DNA from: Eubacterium sp.
GTDB taxonomy: Bacteria; Bacillota; Clostridia; Lachnospirales; Lachnospiraceae
Length of the DNA stretch: 64,000 nt
Direction: 5' to 3'
Assembly (NCBI GenBank): GCA_017433825.1
Contig: JAFRGL010000013.1
Span: 163,277-227,276 of the forward strand
Shown piece by piece: positions 58,365 to 64,000 of the stretch. The position numbers and the translations under genes were made by a program. The notes below the pieces were generated by a model that was not told the origin of the DNA, did not search any database, and was given only the letters and a program-made list of their open reading frames with translations. Position 1 is the first letter of the stretch. Each line of letters opens with the position of its first letter.

Positions 58365-59183
58365 ATGAAGCCCGAAAGCACCGACCTTATCCCCTATGAG
58401 GGTGACAAACCATATATGTTCTTCTGCTTTTCTGACGCGGATGCCGCAAAAATCAGGCCTCTCCTGGCCCGGCTGTACGCCCGGGGCGTCAGAATCTGGT
58501 ATCATACCGGGAAGTCTTCCGACATGGCAGAACGCGCCTTCCGCCAGCAGAGGATGAAAGGTGCGGCCCTGACGGTTTTATATCTGACCGATGCGGCAAG
58601 GGCAGACCTGGATATGAAAAGCGACATACTGTCCTGCCAGGCCAGAGGCTGCCCGGTCATCTGTATTGACACCGATGCCGGCGATTCCGGGCTTTCCATG
58701 GGCCTTACCGATGCCGTCAGGCATATACAGGCATACAAAGGCACCTCGCCGGAAGATACGGAGGAAAAACTGATCCGCACGGAAGGTTTTACCCAGGAAC
58801 TGGTGGGCGAGCCCCGCCAGGTATCTGAAGCCGCCGGTACCGGCAGCCTGGTAAAAATCCTCCTTGTCATCGCGGCTGTCATGATAGCCGCGGGAATCTT
58901 CCTTGCCGTTTACAAAAACCGTCCGAAAGATACGGTAAGCCTTACGGACCCGGTCATTGAAGAAGCGGTACGCGAGGCCTGTGACAGCAGGGTGCTGACG
59001 GAAGAAATTCTGGCCGGCATTACCGTCCTGCGGCTTTCCGCGGTACCGGATAATACAGACGATCTTGCCCTGCTGCCTTCGCTTGTCCGGCTGGAAATCC
59101 CCCTGGAGGACGCCGCTGGCGCCGAAAAGCTTCTGGAAAGCGGGCTTTACGAGATCGCGCTGTATAAAGGGGGCGGATCATGA
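58365..59183 (+). CDS. TIR-like domain protein with one TM helix (operon gene 1)
   Basis: 272 residues from the ATG at 58365 (AAAGGA 7 nt upstream); a 58302 start has no site. Residues 14-130 form a TIR-like domain: YMFFCFSDADAAKIRPLLAR, GVRIWYHTGKSSDMAERAF, ALTVLYLTDAARADLD, GCPVICIDTD. At the position of the catalytic Glu the sequence reads Asp (D87, KSDILSC). A TM helix (VKILLVIAAVMIAAGIFLAV, about 163-183) follows. The short outer part resembles the capping end of an LRR domain (ITVLRLSAVPDN, SLVRLEIPLEDA). The stop overlaps the next start (ATGA). Confidence 0.75.
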   Translation: MKPESTDLIPYEGDKPYMFFCFSDADAAKIRPLLARLYARGVRIWYHTGKSSDMAERAFRQQRMKGAALTVLYLTDAARADLDMKSDILSCQARGCPVICIDTDAGDSGLSMGLTDAVRHIQAYKGTSPEDTEEKLIRTEGFTQELVGEPRQVSEAAGTGSLVKILLVIAAVMIAAGIFLAVYKNRPKDTVSLTDPVIEEAVREACDSRVLTEEILAGITVLRLSAVPDNTDDLALLPSLVRLEIPLEDAAGAEKLLESGLYEIALYKGGGS

Positions 59184-60370
59184 GTATTTATTTCCGACCC
59201 TATGAAGGCAGAAAGCCTTATCTTTTCATCAGTTATTCCCATCAGGATTCCGTAAAGGTCCTGGATATCATTACCCTGCTGCATAATGCAAATGTGCGCC
59301 TCTGGTATGATGAGGGCATCCCGGCCGGAAGCGACTGGCCGATGAACATTGAAACCCACATGAAAAACTGCGCCGCCGTGCTGTTTTTCACTTCAAAGGA
59401 CGCCTATGCCTCCCCCAACTGCTTCAGCGAACTGGTGACCGCCAAAAGGCTCGCAAAGCCCGTACTGACGCTTTCCCTGGACCATTCGGAAAGGCCGGAG
59501 AAATGGCAGCCTGTCCTTGCGAGGGAAAAAGCAGCTGCCCTCAGGGATACCCCGGAAGACACGGCAGCAGAAATCCGCAAATCCGGCATTCTGACCCGCG
59601 CCTTCTATTCCGGGCGGGCTGACAGCGCTTCCGGAAAAGCTGCAGGCCTCATCCTGGCCGTTATACTGCTCGCTGCAGGCGCAGGCCTTCTGTACGCCGC
59701 CGCCTCGGGGAAACTGTCCGGCGGACAGCAGGAAAATCCGGGTTCGGCAGATACGCGGCCTTCTGTCACACCCACACCCGCACCGACTGCAGGGCCGGAG
59801 CCGGAGGAAGAGGTGGATCTTACAAAATACGGGGATTTCTTCACCGCCTATATCACCTTCCCTGACGTAAAGCAGGAAGAAGCCATCCGGAATATCCTGC
59901 GTACGGATGAGGAAAAGATCAAAAAAGAACGGCTGGCTGAGATAACGGAACTGTATTTCGTCGGAAATATGGCGCTGGACAGCCTGGAAGACGTCTCCTA
60001 CAGCACGGAAAAAGGCTATGCGGTAAACGGCGCGCCGGTTAAAACCGGCCCGGTAAACGACCTCTCGCTTATCGGCGACTGTCCGTACCTTGTATCCCTG
60101 GCGCTGATAGACCAGTCGGCAGGCAGCCTGAAAGAGCTGTCCGGCCTGGTGCTTTTAAAGGAACTGTATCTGTGCGGCTGCGAAGAAGCGGATTTGACCG
60201 GGCTTACAGACCTGCCGGGCCTTAAAACACTGCATCTTGAGCATTCCGGCATCCGGGACCTGACGCCGCTTACCGCTTTTAAACGGCTCAAAACCGTTAC
60301 CGTAAGCACGGATATGCTTCCCCTTGCCCTGAATGCCGACGCGGATTTTGATATTCTGCTCGTACCTTAA
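59180..60370 (+). CDS. TIR-TM-LRR protein with intact TIR catalytic Glu (operon gene 2)
   Basis: 396 residues. The TIR domain (about 11-140) reads KPYLFISYSHQDSVKVLDII, BB-loop LWYDEGIPAGSDWP, AAVLFFTSKDAYASPNCFSE and AKPVLTLSLDHSE. Glu84 (NCFSEL) aligns with the catalytic Glu of NAD-cleaving TIR proteins. The TM helix is about 154-175 (AAGLILAVILLAAGAGLLYA). A Pro/Thr/Glu linker (TPTPAPTAGPEPEEE) follows, then a short LRR region (LVSLALIDQSAGSLKELS, LVLLKELYLCGCEEADLTGL). The TIR end should be cytoplasmic and the LRR outside. Translationally coupled to gene 1. Confidence 0.82.
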   Translation: MSIYFRPYEGRKPYLFISYSHQDSVKVLDIITLLHNANVRLWYDEGIPAGSDWPMNIETHMKNCAAVLFFTSKDAYASPNCFSELVTAKRLAKPVLTLSLDHSERPEKWQPVLAREKAAALRDTPEDTAAEIRKSGILTRAFYSGRADSASGKAAGLILAVILLAAGAGLLYAAASGKLSGGQQENPGSADTRPSVTPTPAPTAGPEPEEEVDLTKYGDFFTAYITFPDVKQEEAIRNILRTDEEKIKKERLAEITELYFVGNMALDSLEDVSYSTEKGYAVNGAPVKTGPVNDLSLIGDCPYLVSLALIDQSAGSLKELSGLVLLKELYLCGCEEADLTGLTDLPGLKTLHLEHSGIRDLTPLTAFKRLKTVTVSTDMLPLALNADADFDILLVP

Positions 60371-60420
60371 GACACTTTTTTACCGATATAACAGCACAAT
60401 CTGAAAAAGGAGGACCGAAT

Positions 60421-63400
60421 ATGCCGTCTTCACTGAAACTGTTCCCGCTGTACGCGGAAAATGACCGGGAAGCCGTAAAGCCCGTACTGGACGCCCTGAA
60501 ACTGAAGAACGTCACTGTGACGGGAGGTGAAAACCCTGCTCCCGGCAGTACCGTGCTGCTCTTCCTCTCGGAGAACTTCTCTGCGGATGAAGACCTGCAG
60601 ATAAAATATTTCGCTGCAGAGGGCTCCGCGCTTTCCGTCATACCGGTGAACCTGGACGGTTCGGAACCGCCGGAGCTGGTGAAAAGCGCCCTTTACGCCC
60701 GGCATACCATTTCCGCAAAAGACCGCAGCCCGGAGGAACTGGCTGAGCTCATTGCCGCATCGTCCGAACAGACAAAGCCCAAATCCCGCCTTCCCATTAT
60801 CCTCGGCATTGTCATTGCCGCCGTGGTGATCATCGTCCTCGCGCTCACGCTTGGAAAAAAAGGTGACGGTGACAAGCCGGATGAACCCGCTGTTTCCTCT
60901 TCTTCGGAGGAAGAAGCCGAACCGGAAGTCTATTTCGGCATGACGAAGGAAGACCTGGCAAAAATCGAAGACGTGATTATCATCGGTGAGAAATATGCCT
61001 TCATCGGGCCCTCCGAAATGCGGAATGCCGGCCAATGGCCGGATACAAATTACCTGGGCTACCGTAACTGGGAGGACAATCATGCCGTCTGGTACAGTAC
61101 CGAAGACGGCAGCGCCATTCCTTCCGCCCGGTACGACGATCTGGGATTTTTAAGCTATATGCCGAATCTGCGGTTTTTATACCTGTGCAACGCACAGCTG
61201 GACGGCATTCCGAGCCTTGCAGATGCGGAAAAGCTGCAGGATGTCTATCTGCAGGACTGCACCGTTCCCGATCTTGCCTGGCTTGAAGGCGCAGGTATGA
61301 CATCTTTCAACGCCTCTGCCTGCGGAATTGAGGATTTTTCGTATCTGGGCAGCTGTGAATGGCTGAAATTCGTGCATATTGATTTTACCGGAACCGCCCG
61401 GGCGGATTTTACGGATTTTTCGCCCACACATCTGGACCGGCTGGAGCTGGAAAACGGTTATGAACTGGCGGATATCGACCTTTCCTCCCTGGCTTCCTGC
61501 AAAAGCATCAGCCTTCTGCGTTTCCGGGATATTCCTCTTTCCGATATCTCCTGGCTGTCCGGCAATCCCTCCATACAGCATCTGGAGCTGGAAAACCTGC
61601 AGCGGCTGTCGGACATTTCCGCCGTGGAACCCCTGACAACACTGAAAGGAATCCATATCTCAAACTGCCCGCAGATTACGGATTATACGCCGGTTTCCGG
61701 CTGTACCAGGCTTAACGAATTCTCCCTGCATGCCGAAGGGAATCGGGAAACCGACCTGATGTTCCTGTCCGGTCTGAACAGGCTTTCGAATATTTCCGTC
61801 TCCGGCCTGTCCATGGACAGTCTGGATTTTCTGGAAGAGCTTTCCGGAAACGGCCGTATATCCCTGAGTCTGTACGCGGATGTCCGGGATTACGCGGGAC
61901 TTGCCGCCGCTGACGGCTATGAGAGGCTGGAAATCGGTCCCGATAACGGGGATGCCTCCTCCTTCCTGCCCCATCTTGCGGACAAATATGTCAATGAGCT
62001 GGTTCTGGACAGATGCTTCGGTCTGGATTTAAGCACGCTGCCCGATGTCAGAAGCCGTCTGGAGATCAAGAATAGTGACCTTCGGGATCTGTCCGGCATG
62101 CCGGCCATGAAAATTCTGGAGCTTGCCCTTATAAATAATCCGTATCTGACCAGCCTTTCAGGCATCGAAGCCTTTGCCACCCTGGGCAAGGACTACATCG
62201 GCAAACTGGATATCCTGAACTGCCCCCGTCTGACTGACTTTTCCGCCCTGGACGGAGCCGTTTTCAAGGAGCTGTGGTTCCGCTATCAGTTTATCCTTCC
62301 GGATTTCGGGAAAATGAGCTTCAACAACCTGTATTTTGAAGGCGTCGACGGTATGACCGACCTTCATTTCCTGGAAAATATCGAAGACAGGAAATATGAT
62401 ACTTTCAGCTTCGCGGGTCAGGATGAAATCACAGATTTAAGCCCGTTAAGGAAATTATCCATCCAGACTCTGAAGATCCCGCCTCAGCTGGAGGCCCAGG
62501 CAAAGGAGCTGAAAAATGACGGTGTGATCGGCAAATATGAAATTGTCTTCCCGGAAGCCGGCTGGTTCTATGACGAAAGCGAGCTTTCGCTGCTTTCCCT
62601 GGAGGAACTGGATACCTTGCCTGCCGCCCTGCTTTCCAGGGTCGCCAGGGTCAAAATCATCGGAAACCGGGTTCTGGACTGGCACCGGTACAATCTCGAG
62701 AAACGCTGGTACGATGACAGCGACCATATCGTACTCAGGGACCATCAGCGGGATTATGAGGAAGAGTTTACGGAAACCGGCAGTATTACGGACTTTGAAA
62801 AGCTGCTCCGCCTTTCCTCTCTGCGCGAACTGGAGCTTGACTGTCAGCCCATAACCGACCTTTCCGGCATCCAGGACTTTTCCTCCCTGGAAGTGCTCAC
62901 GCTTCAGTATGACAGCCAGCTCACCGATATTTCACCGGCCTTCACTCTGCAGAGTATACGCAGCCTCATGCTGCGCGGCATTCCGGTTGACTCTCTGGAG
63001 GGCATCCAGAACCTGAAAAAACTGGATTTCCTGAATCTGGACAGCATGCAGATAACCGATCTTTCGGCGCTGGAATCCTGCGATTTCTCCAATGCTGAGG
63101 AATACGGCGGCTTCCAGCTGGAAATGTACTCGATGAATGACTGCAGGGATTTTGATTTCCTGGAGAACATTCACAGTTTCCGGTATCTGGCCATCTGCGA
63201 CAATGACACCGCGAACTGGCTTGACAAGGTTAAAGATGCTTATATCCCGTATCTGACTGCCCATAACTCGAAGATGACCAATGAAGACGTAGCCGGCATT
63301 GCAGCAAATCATCCGGAGCTTACAGAACTGCAGATGTCCTGGAACCAGGAAGTGACCGACCTTACCCCGCTTCTGCAGCTGGAAAACCTGACGTTCCTGC

Positions 63401-63483
63401 GTATCTCCCACGATATGGAAGAAGCCATCCGCAGCCTCGACGGAGCTGAATATACCTTCCGGCTGGAGATCGAGGGAGAGTAA
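60421..63483 (+). CDS. large TIR-like-TM-LRR receptor-type protein (operon gene 3)
   Basis: 1020 residues, RBS AAGGAGG. Residues 1-115 are a reduced TIR-like domain (LKLFPLYAENDREAVKPVLD, STVLLFLSENFSADEDLQ, LSVIPVNLDG). At the Glu position the sequence reads Lys or Gln, so it is probably not catalytic. The TM helix is about 124-144 (LPIILGIVIAAVVIIVLALT), followed by an acidic Ser-rich linker (SSSSEEEAEPE). From about 150 to the C-terminus are many LRR units of internalin type, such as LRELELDCQPITDLSGIQDF and NLKKLDFLNLDSMQITDLSA, with a shorter degenerate set before 700. This is the putative sensor of the operon. Confidence 0.8.
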   Translation: MPSSLKLFPLYAENDREAVKPVLDALKLKNVTVTGGENPAPGSTVLLFLSENFSADEDLQIKYFAAEGSALSVIPVNLDGSEPPELVKSALYARHTISAKDRSPEELAELIAASSEQTKPKSRLPIILGIVIAAVVIIVLALTLGKKGDGDKPDEPAVSSSSEEEAEPEVYFGMTKEDLAKIEDVIIIGEKYAFIGPSEMRNAGQWPDTNYLGYRNWEDNHAVWYSTEDGSAIPSARYDDLGFLSYMPNLRFLYLCNAQLDGIPSLADAEKLQDVYLQDCTVPDLAWLEGAGMTSFNASACGIEDFSYLGSCEWLKFVHIDFTGTARADFTDFSPTHLDRLELENGYELADIDLSSLASCKSISLLRFRDIPLSDISWLSGNPSIQHLELENLQRLSDISAVEPLTTLKGIHISNCPQITDYTPVSGCTRLNEFSLHAEGNRETDLMFLSGLNRLSNISVSGLSMDSLDFLEELSGNGRISLSLYADVRDYAGLAAADGYERLEIGPDNGDASSFLPHLADKYVNELVLDRCFGLDLSTLPDVRSRLEIKNSDLRDLSGMPAMKILELALINNPYLTSLSGIEAFATLGKDYIGKLDILNCPRLTDFSALDGAVFKELWFRYQFILPDFGKMSFNNLYFEGVDGMTDLHFLENIEDRKYDTFSFAGQDEITDLSPLRKLSIQTLKIPPQLEAQAKELKNDGVIGKYEIVFPEAGWFYDESELSLLSLEELDTLPAALLSRVARVKIIGNRVLDWHRYNLEKRWYDDSDHIVLRDHQRDYEEEFTETGSITDFEKLLRLSSLRELELDCQPITDLSGIQDFSSLEVLTLQYDSQLTDISPAFTLQSIRSLMLRGIPVDSLEGIQNLKKLDFLNLDSMQITDLSALESCDFSNAEEYGGFQLEMYSMNDCRDFDFLENIHSFRYLAICDNDTANWLDKVKDAYIPYLTAHNSKMTNEDVAGIAANHPELTELQMSWNQEVTDLTPLLQLENLTFLRISHDMEEAIRSLDGAEYTFRLEIEGE

Positions 63484-63582
63484 AACATAAAATTATAAAT
63501 CATTCTGTTTGCAGCAAAATCAGCCGGCTGAACCGGCCGTAGGTCGCTTCGCAGAAAGAAATAAACCGAATACTCGAATCCC

Positions 63583-63969
63583 GATTTCGGGTACCGCTCA
63601 AAGAGGGAGAGTTCTGTTGATCACAACTCTCCCTCTTTCGCTCGGAAACCTGGCATGGTAAGCGCAGTTTCCGCCCCTCATCGGTCTTCTCATCTTCGGT
63701 ATTTCTTTGCCTGCTTGCTCCAATACGGCCTCGTTCAGCCAGGCTGATTTTCTGCTGCAAACCGCCTGCTTTGGGACCCGGCCCGGGAACTGCAAAGCAG
63801 CCGTACCGGCAGAAAGAACAGGTCGGGATTGGAGTAAGGCCCATGAAAAATACAGCTGTCGGAAACGGCTGATGAGGGGCAAAAAGTTGCTTCCGAGCAA
63901 TTCTTTTTGAGGCCTGCTGAGGCGAGTTGTCATCAGAGAACTCGTCGAATCAGGCCGGTACCCGAAATC
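63583..63969. repeat. long imperfect inverted repeat (palindromic element)
   Basis: Nested inverted pairs: GATTTCGGGTACCG (63583-63596) with its complement at 63956-63969; GCCCCTCATC (63673-63682) with 63871-63880; CTCCAAT (63718-63724) with 63828-63834; CTGCTTTG (63766-63773) with 63793-63800. Each arm also has its own hairpin: AAAGAGGGAGAGTT/AACTCTCCCTCTTT at 63600-63638 and CGAGTT/AACTCG at 63923-63944, with similar loops. A further related sequence (CAGCTGTATATTTTTCAGGC) starts at 63981 and runs off the edge. Confidence 0.7.
63600..63642 (+). terminator. likely terminator of the TIR operon
   Basis: A 14-bp perfect stem, AAAGAGGGAGAGTT (63600-63613) with AACTCTCCCTCTTT (63625-63638). The T-run is only TTT, and the hairpin belongs to the palindromic element, so the terminator role is inferred. 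Confidence 0.5.
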
Positions 63970-64000
63970 AGACGGTTTCGCAGCTGTATATTTTTCAGGC

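Follow-up and report, generated by a model that had tools for sequence, protein, structure and literature searches.

The 64,000-nucleotide stretch of DNA analysed here (the window) forms the end of contig C12 in a 2.6-Mb draft genome of Eubacterium sp. (92.7% complete), and at positions 58365–63483 it carries three consecutive genes for proteins of 272, 396 and 1020 amino acids, each of which combines an N-terminal TIR or TIR-like domain with a transmembrane (TM) helix and a leucine-rich repeat (LRR) or LRR-type region. All three genes lie on the forward strand. Gene 1, an open reading frame (ORF) at 58365–59183, is predicted to encode a degenerate TIR domain, the TM helix and a short LRR-type cap. 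The product of gene 2 (59180–60370), judged from its sequence to be the presumed enzyme of the trio, consists of a canonical TIR domain, the TM helix, a Pro/Thr linker and a short LRR region, and that of gene 3 (60421–63483) of a putatively degenerate TIR domain, the TM helix, a Ser/Glu linker and a large LRR part. Genes 1 and 2 overlap by four nucleotides (ATGA, 59180–59183), and a gap of 50 nt precedes gene 3, whose strong ribosome-binding site, AAAAGGAGG (60405–60413), is located 7 nt upstream of the ATG. Protein sizes, overlap, gap and ribosome-binding site had all been given correctly in a preliminary description of this DNA. One hydrophobic helix follows the N-terminal domain in each protein (residues 165–183, 157–175 and 126–144 for genes 1, 2 and 3, respectively). 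The contig stops about 520 bases past gene 3 (63484–64000).

The domain assignments rest on different evidence for each protein. For gene 2, a Pfam search returned TIR_2 at residues 16–126 (E 1.2e-15) and LRR_4 with E 4e-4 (21 bits, under the 27-bit cut-off); the LRR cut-off is passed by two gene-2 relatives (E 3.2e-9 and 5e-9). Gene 3 matches LRR_4 with E 2.4e-24, and its N-terminus has no Pfam TIR match. Gene 1 yielded only TIR_2 at E 0.025, which is under the cut-off, and no Pfam LRR match in its C-terminal part, where a cap and about one repeat are discernible by eye. We also built N-terminal profiles from 33 gene-1, 27 gene-2 and 32 gene-3 sequences. Searched against PDB sequences, the gene-2 profile found Cat1 (2.7e-7) as well as chains of TLR15/TLR2, MyD88 and TLR6. 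No significant TIR was returned from the same database by the gene-1 profile (one at E 0.93) or by the gene-3 profile, the top matches of the latter being designed helical repeats (E 6.5e-4, 24–31 residues) that we take as chance helix matches. As these results speak against a TIR identity of genes 1 and 3, profile and fold comparison was used for them. Aligned with hhalign, gene 1 matched the gene-2 TIR profile with a probability of 99.1, and gene 3 matched gene 2 with 95.8 and gene 1 with 96.9; the controls, gene 3 against two unrelated profiles, gave 0.1. When an AlphaFold2 model of the gene-3 N-terminal domain (predicted local distance difference test score, pLDDT, 78.6) was compared with the PDB, the top 18 matches were all structures that contain TIR, such as plant RPS4/RRS1, Hydra TRR-2, SARM1 and MAL; their E-values were modest, 2.1e-4 to 4.4e-3 (only four at E ≤ 0.001). 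The structure prediction that had been suggested as a check on gene 3 thus found TIR folds, and the proposed TIR/TIR-like–TM–LRR layout of all three proteins is borne out by Pfam, profile comparison, the fold match for gene 3 and the TM helices. Gene 2 is the only canonical TIR of the trio; gene 1 is classed as a degenerate TIR by profile comparison and gene 3 by profile comparison together with the AlphaFold model.

A scan of named genomes with a gene-2 alignment gave 147 loci, of which 80 were kept; the core set used below comprises the 48 loci L089–L136. All core loci stem from metagenome-assembled genomes (MAGs), many from the ruminant gut, with 47 of the 48 assigned to groups within the Clostridia and one to Bacillota. 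Gene 2 is present in all 48 by construction and, as some loci are near-duplicates, they do not represent 48 independent events. Gene 1 is found at least in part in 48 of 48 (a fragment in another frame in L130, cut by the contig start in L123) and gene 3 in 43; it is missing at a contig edge in L107, L130 and L136, and L122 and L124 lack the gene. Two or three copies of gene 3 occur in eight core loci, counting cut or split genes (e.g., in L100, L104 and L116). The three-gene set, for which a search in other genomes had been recommended, therefore recurs and is not a chance layout, and the translational coupling of genes 1 and 2 can be recognized in the four-nucleotide overlap of 40 of the 47 scored pairs. 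Among 397 genomes of the family, a gene-2 match (E ≤ 1e-10) was present in 22 and a full-length gene 2 in three (the window's own, G097 and G233); among 391 genomes of the class, full-length gene 2 was confined to the window's own. The loci in G097 and G233 contain the trio plus two more genes, and a second locus in G233 has genes 1 and 2 only. Queried as a single protein, gene 2 had no relative among the genome contigs, and relatives were found with a four-row gene-2 alignment; single-protein gene 3 had no relative in viral contigs, which were likewise free of matches to the gene-2 and SLOG alignments. A tblastn search with gene 2 gave no match in plasmids and one TIR-only match in phages.

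Two features had not been visible in the preliminary description: the system has further recurrent genes, and two of the three TIR domains lack the catalytic glutamate. A Glu occupies the catalytic position in 47 of 47 gene-2 homologues (Glu84 in gene 2, codon at 59429–59431, presumed catalytic by analogy with TIR NADases), in 1 of 45 gene-1 homologues and, in an hhalign-based alignment, in 4 of 47 gene-3 homologues, the last count being alignment-dependent because the adjoining column holds Glu in 9 and Asp in 22 of the 47. The WYDEG loop of gene 2 has its Trp, Asp and Glu in 47 of 47 sequences and its Tyr in 46 of 47. The combination of TIR fold and catalytic Glu that marks TIR NADases is found in gene 2 and mostly not in genes 1 and 3, so that the trio would comprise a presumptive enzyme together with two proteins presumed to act as regulators or scaffolds. 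NAD cleavage, which had been considered in general terms, is therefore plausible for gene 2 only.

Placement of the TIR domains inside and the LRR regions outside the cell had also been predicted, and the charge distribution agrees with it in all three families. Exactly one helix (cut-off 1.7) was detected in 44 of 45 gene-1, 44 of 47 gene-2 and 46 of 47 gene-3 proteins. Within 15 residues of the helix, Lys and Arg are more frequent on the N-terminal side in 26 of 45 (12 equal), 40 of 45 (three equal) and 41 of 45 (three equal) cases, respectively, and overall Lys plus Arg falls from about 14% before the helix to 7–8% after it. Cysteine drops from 2.17% before the helix to 0.08% in the C-terminal part of gene 1 and from 1.71% to 0.88% in gene 2; in gene 3 it is 0.58% in the inner and 1.80% in the outer part. 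As a rough heuristic reference, we used pooled ORFs of the genome, 11 exported (1.16%) and 53 cytosolic, some of them spurious (1.85%). At the sequence level, cysteine content thus speaks for an outside C-terminal part in gene 1 and, weakly, in gene 2; it does not do so for gene 3, the point at which the predicted topology lacks agreement. A TIR-TM protein from G156 carries a PASTA domain directly after the helix, and this fits outside placement, PASTA being an external peptidoglycan binder.

Duplicated gene-3 copies within one operon (eight pairs from six loci) have inner parts that are 100, 80, 61, 65, 63, 61, 74 and 100% identical (for the L100 pair, just 54 residues were compared) and outer parts that are 39, 45, 41, 37, 42, 45, 40 and 40% identical. 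The tandem copies in L092 (11178–17864) and L128 (5933–15911) have inner domains identical over 126 and 130 residues and outer parts of 39–40% identity, and the L092 copies agree at every one of the first 400 bases of DNA compared. An error in MAG assembly may lie behind the identical inner domains, although the pattern occurs in two separate loci. Of nine gene-3 pairs chosen between genomes, four had an outer part at least 10 points less similar than the inner part, three differed by about one point at most and two had the more similar outer part. As far as sequences can tell, the copies fit duplicated receptors in which the signalling part is kept matched and the recognition part differs.

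Two further genes recur next to the trio. The first, present in 26 of the 48 core loci, encodes a protein of 530 amino acids with an N-terminal SLOG domain followed by hydrophobic helices (SLOG-TM). Pfam YAcAr was matched by 14 of 20 members (best E 7.1e-6), and a structural model (pLDDT 84.4) has YpsA (E 7.3e-4), DprA and ShosA as PDB neighbours, so that Pfam and the model both identify a SLOG domain. The second gene (HD/RyR) occurs in 29 of the 48 core loci (seven are of a shorter kind with 24–28% identity, and two lie on the opposite strand). Its product has a RyR domain according to Pfam (13 of 25, best 1.8e-15) and to PDB RyR chains (best 3.9e-10); H158, H213-D214, H317, H352 and D388 are invariant in 25 rows and are read by eye as an HD site, which Pfam matches only weakly (HD in 4 of 25, best 0.034). 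The window's genome encodes a SLOG-TM protein of 49% identity on another contig, C17; searches of this genome for an HD/RyR relative and for a RyR domain gave no match. On C17 (L088, 4181–10411), SLOG-TM comes after a gene of the clostripain family (Pfam E 8.1e-46) and a lipoprotein-like one, with overlaps of 4 and 8 nt.

Across the 397 and 391 genomes sampled, near-full-length SLOG-TM was detected in six, namely the window's own, G097, G233, G156, G574 and G478, and in all but the first of these it is clustered with a TIR gene. The cluster contains the LRR trio in G097 and G233 and, in G156, the TIR-TM-PASTA gene together with a TM-LRR gene; in G574 and G478, SLOG-TM lies directly beside a TIR gene with a WD40-type propeller. 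This recurrence with TIRs of different outer modules is our main reason for regarding TIR and SLOG-TM as coupled, and it makes a chance neighbourhood unlikely. In the 397 family genomes, full-length gene 2 is present in three and near-full-length SLOG-TM in four, with an overlap of three, a co-occurrence that is partly circular because the SLOG query was taken from one such locus; the window's genome is the independent case. The TM-LRR protein of G156 (318 amino acids, first gene of the cluster) looks TIR-like by eye; it was not counted as a degenerate TIR because it does not match the gene-1 and gene-2 profiles (hhalign 11.8 and 3.2). In G316 (L172, 7690–12115), a partial SLOG-type match lies beside a 1176-residue ORF that ends in a RyR domain (E 1.7e-16), and the TIR match of this genome sits on a different contig.

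Thoeris, one of the closest known parallels, consists of the TIR protein ThsB and ThsA, a SIR2-SLOG or TM-macro effector, and responds to phage with an ADP-ribose-type signal and abortive infection. Both systems link TIR proteins to a SLOG-domain or membrane effector and have several TIR genes per effector, and Thoeris, too, can pair an active TIR with one that seems to be inactive (EcThsB1/EcThsB2; excerpt of PMC11204291). Unlike in Thoeris, the TIRs of the trio are membrane-anchored with LRR parts, and the SLOG domain, of YspA type, forms one protein with TM helices. A simple Thoeris system was rejected, as gene 2 scores below the ThsB_TIR cut-off (13 versus 21.2 bits) and neither SIR2 nor macro nor STALD is among the Pfam families matched by 20 SLOG-TM members. 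PADLOC contains no close model: its ThsB models match gene 2 weakly (best E 4.5e-5, residues 14–84), weak ThsB/SAVED-type matches within the trio were limited to gene 2 (best E 2.1e-5), SLOG-TM gave three weak one-member matches and HD/RyR none. With animal Toll-like receptors (TLRs; layout as outlined in the part of PMC7075850 available) the proteins share a single TM helix that has a TIR domain on one side and an LRR part on the other, and the gene-2 TIR profile matches TLR15/TLR2, MyD88 and TLR6 chains; the single helix and the charge bias fit a location of the two parts on opposite sides of the membrane, and gene-3 cysteine does not. The trio differs from TLRs, where the LRR is N-terminal and the TIR C-terminal, in that TIR comes first in all three proteins, and also in its three different subunits, its presumptive enzyme in gene 2 and its internalin-like LRRs. 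Burroughs, Aravind and colleagues predicted nucleotide-signalling conflict systems with TIR beside SLATT or SLOG (PMC9503650, PMC7159879), with SLATT domains near TIRs as membrane effectors regulated by ADP-ribose derivatives (PMC9503650); the accessible sections of these two articles mention no TM-LRR TIR receptors, degenerate-TIR partners or RyR. A TIR survey (PMC7075850) ascribes diverse architectures to prokaryotic TIR groups, and TIR-TM-LRR is not named in its available portion. Full-text searches of open-access papers gave no description of a bacterial TIR-TM-LRR operon. The trio and its partners, which belong neither to Thoeris nor to the TLRs, may work as a Thoeris-type TIR-SLOG system with TLR-like receptors, and we file them as a variant of TIR-SLOG nucleotide signalling.

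From the domains, their conservation, the Glu pattern and the gene linkage, we infer a heteromeric receptor of type-II membrane topology, in which the catalytic TIR would produce from NAD a signal that SLOG-TM receives, in the manner of a Thoeris system equipped with surface receptors; we consider this model slightly more likely than not. The three proteins would form a complex in the cell membrane with the TIR and TIR-like domains inside and the LRR parts outside. Gene 2 would be its enzyme, the non-catalytic TIRs of genes 1 and 3 would hold or gate the gene-2 TIR through TIR–TIR contacts, and gene 3 would provide the main recognition surface. An external ligand might cluster the trio and bring the TIRs into an active arrangement, upon which gene 2 would convert NAD+ to an ADP-ribose-type signal, a chemistry proposed by analogy with the TIR-derived signals of Thoeris (excerpts of PMC11204291 and PMC7272460). 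SLOG-TM may sense this signal and act at the membrane by a pore, depolarisation or arrest, a role suggested by the published SLATT effector prediction (PMC9503650, available sections). The HD/RyR protein, encoded in many relatives, is a candidate for binding the signal or clearing it, and the SLOG-TM protein that the window's genome encodes on another contig could serve several membrane TIR receptors. External sensing and a role in defence are what we infer for the system as a whole. Several observations weigh against this model. Activity, ligand and complex are each predictions; SLOG-TM is unlinked to the trio in the window's genome, and the propeller TIRs of G574 and G478 have no TM helix at the cut-off used; the TM part of SLOG-TM is matched only weakly by DUF4231 (19 of 20, best 1e-6), which we take to be related to SLATT, and by SLATT_3 (2 of 20, best 0.017). 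To these are added the acidic residues adjoining the catalytic column of gene 3 and the cysteine-rich outer part of the same protein.

A further difficulty leads directly to the first of the alternatives. SLOG-TM is absent from 22 of the 48 core loci, 10 of which extend more than 2 kb downstream (another 10 end within 200 bases), as would be expected if the ligand-bound gene-2 TIR, a canonical TIR with Glu84, simply destroyed NAD+ and needed no dedicated effector. The preliminary description had left NAD depletion and signalling side by side. Because SLOG-TM recurs, with LRR, PASTA and propeller TIR types alike, a nucleotide signal with a membrane effector is favoured over depletion; SLOG-TM is also encoded in the window's genome, and we consider direct depletion rather unlikely. 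A little more room must be left for the idea, unlikely as well, that the TIRs are assembly domains of an envelope sensor that reports cell-wall state, a nutrient or a host glycan and has neither NAD chemistry nor a role in defence. Such a sensor would account for the lack of Glu in two of the three TIRs, the PASTA domain in a related TIR protein and the scarcity of mobile relatives (no plasmid match, one TIR-only phage match), but it would leave the near-invariance of Glu84 and the WYDEG loop in gene 2 and the linkage to SLOG and RyR domains without a reason.

The arrangement in the membrane could also be inverted, with cytoplasmic LRR parts sensing an internal ligand, e.g., a phage protein. 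This would suit the cysteine content of the gene-3 LRR part, which is near the cytosolic and above the exported value of our heuristic sets; it conflicts with the charge bias across the helix in all three families, the nearly Cys-free C-terminal part of gene 1 and the position of PASTA right after the helix in G156, and is improbable in our view.

The heteromeric receptor proposed here would not be the only membrane TIR system of the organism. On contigs C8 (L024, 2269–7432), C14 (L027, 1824–6795) and C18 (L028, 2844–7906), a canonical TIR-TM protein stands beside a degenerate-TIR-TM partner (hhalign 99.6), as in the trio, and none of the three partners has Glu in the aligned column. Unlike in the trio, the outer part of the canonical proteins is propeller-type (PQQ_2) and not LRR, that of the partners is unassigned or weakly WD40, and the TIRs form a different subfamily (hhalign 94.8 to the gene-2 TIR). 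Contig C20 (L029, 6479–9511) encodes an unpaired TIR-TM protein. Two adjacent genes on C13 (L025, 5218–6911) have two TIR_2 stretches each and no TM helix at the cut-off, and nearby ORFs resemble ADP-ribosylglycohydrolase and 2H phosphoesterase by eye. A BspA-type LRR–TIR–Sel1 protein, also without a TM helix at the cut-off, is encoded on C8 (L024, 9834–12446), and two more TIR_2 proteins on C8 (L023, 2653–4977) and C13 (L026, 4461–6245) have a zinc-ribbon-like N-terminus by eye. In G003, of the same genus, the C-terminal part of a TIR-TM protein (L051, 6161–8752) has no Pfam match over the cut-off and represents another outer module on a related TIR.

It is conceivable, though we advance this only tentatively, that some gut Clostridia possess a repertoire of innate-immune receptors in which membrane TIRs carry interchangeable outer modules (LRR, beta-propeller, PASTA) and each catalytic TIR is gated by degenerate partners. 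Recognition outside the cell would then be converted to a nucleotide messenger for a common SLOG-membrane effector, and the outer domains would diversify with inner domains kept matched, so that the bacteria would have an equivalent of TLR signalling that uses a second messenger of its own. To our knowledge, the bacterial TIR systems tested detect infection from within the cell. If our interpretation as a receptor holds, a membrane TIR complex that is conserved and exposes an LRR surface to the outside would correspond in layout to Toll-like sensing, would bring surface detection into TIR-SLOG nucleotide signalling and would deserve a kind of its own. It raises the question of how one-pass receptors couple recognition outside to TIR catalysis, and the gating by degenerate TIR partners is testable. 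That relatives share this gene set, often with a gene for a predicted nucleotide sensor of the membrane next to it, points to an alarm system not described before.

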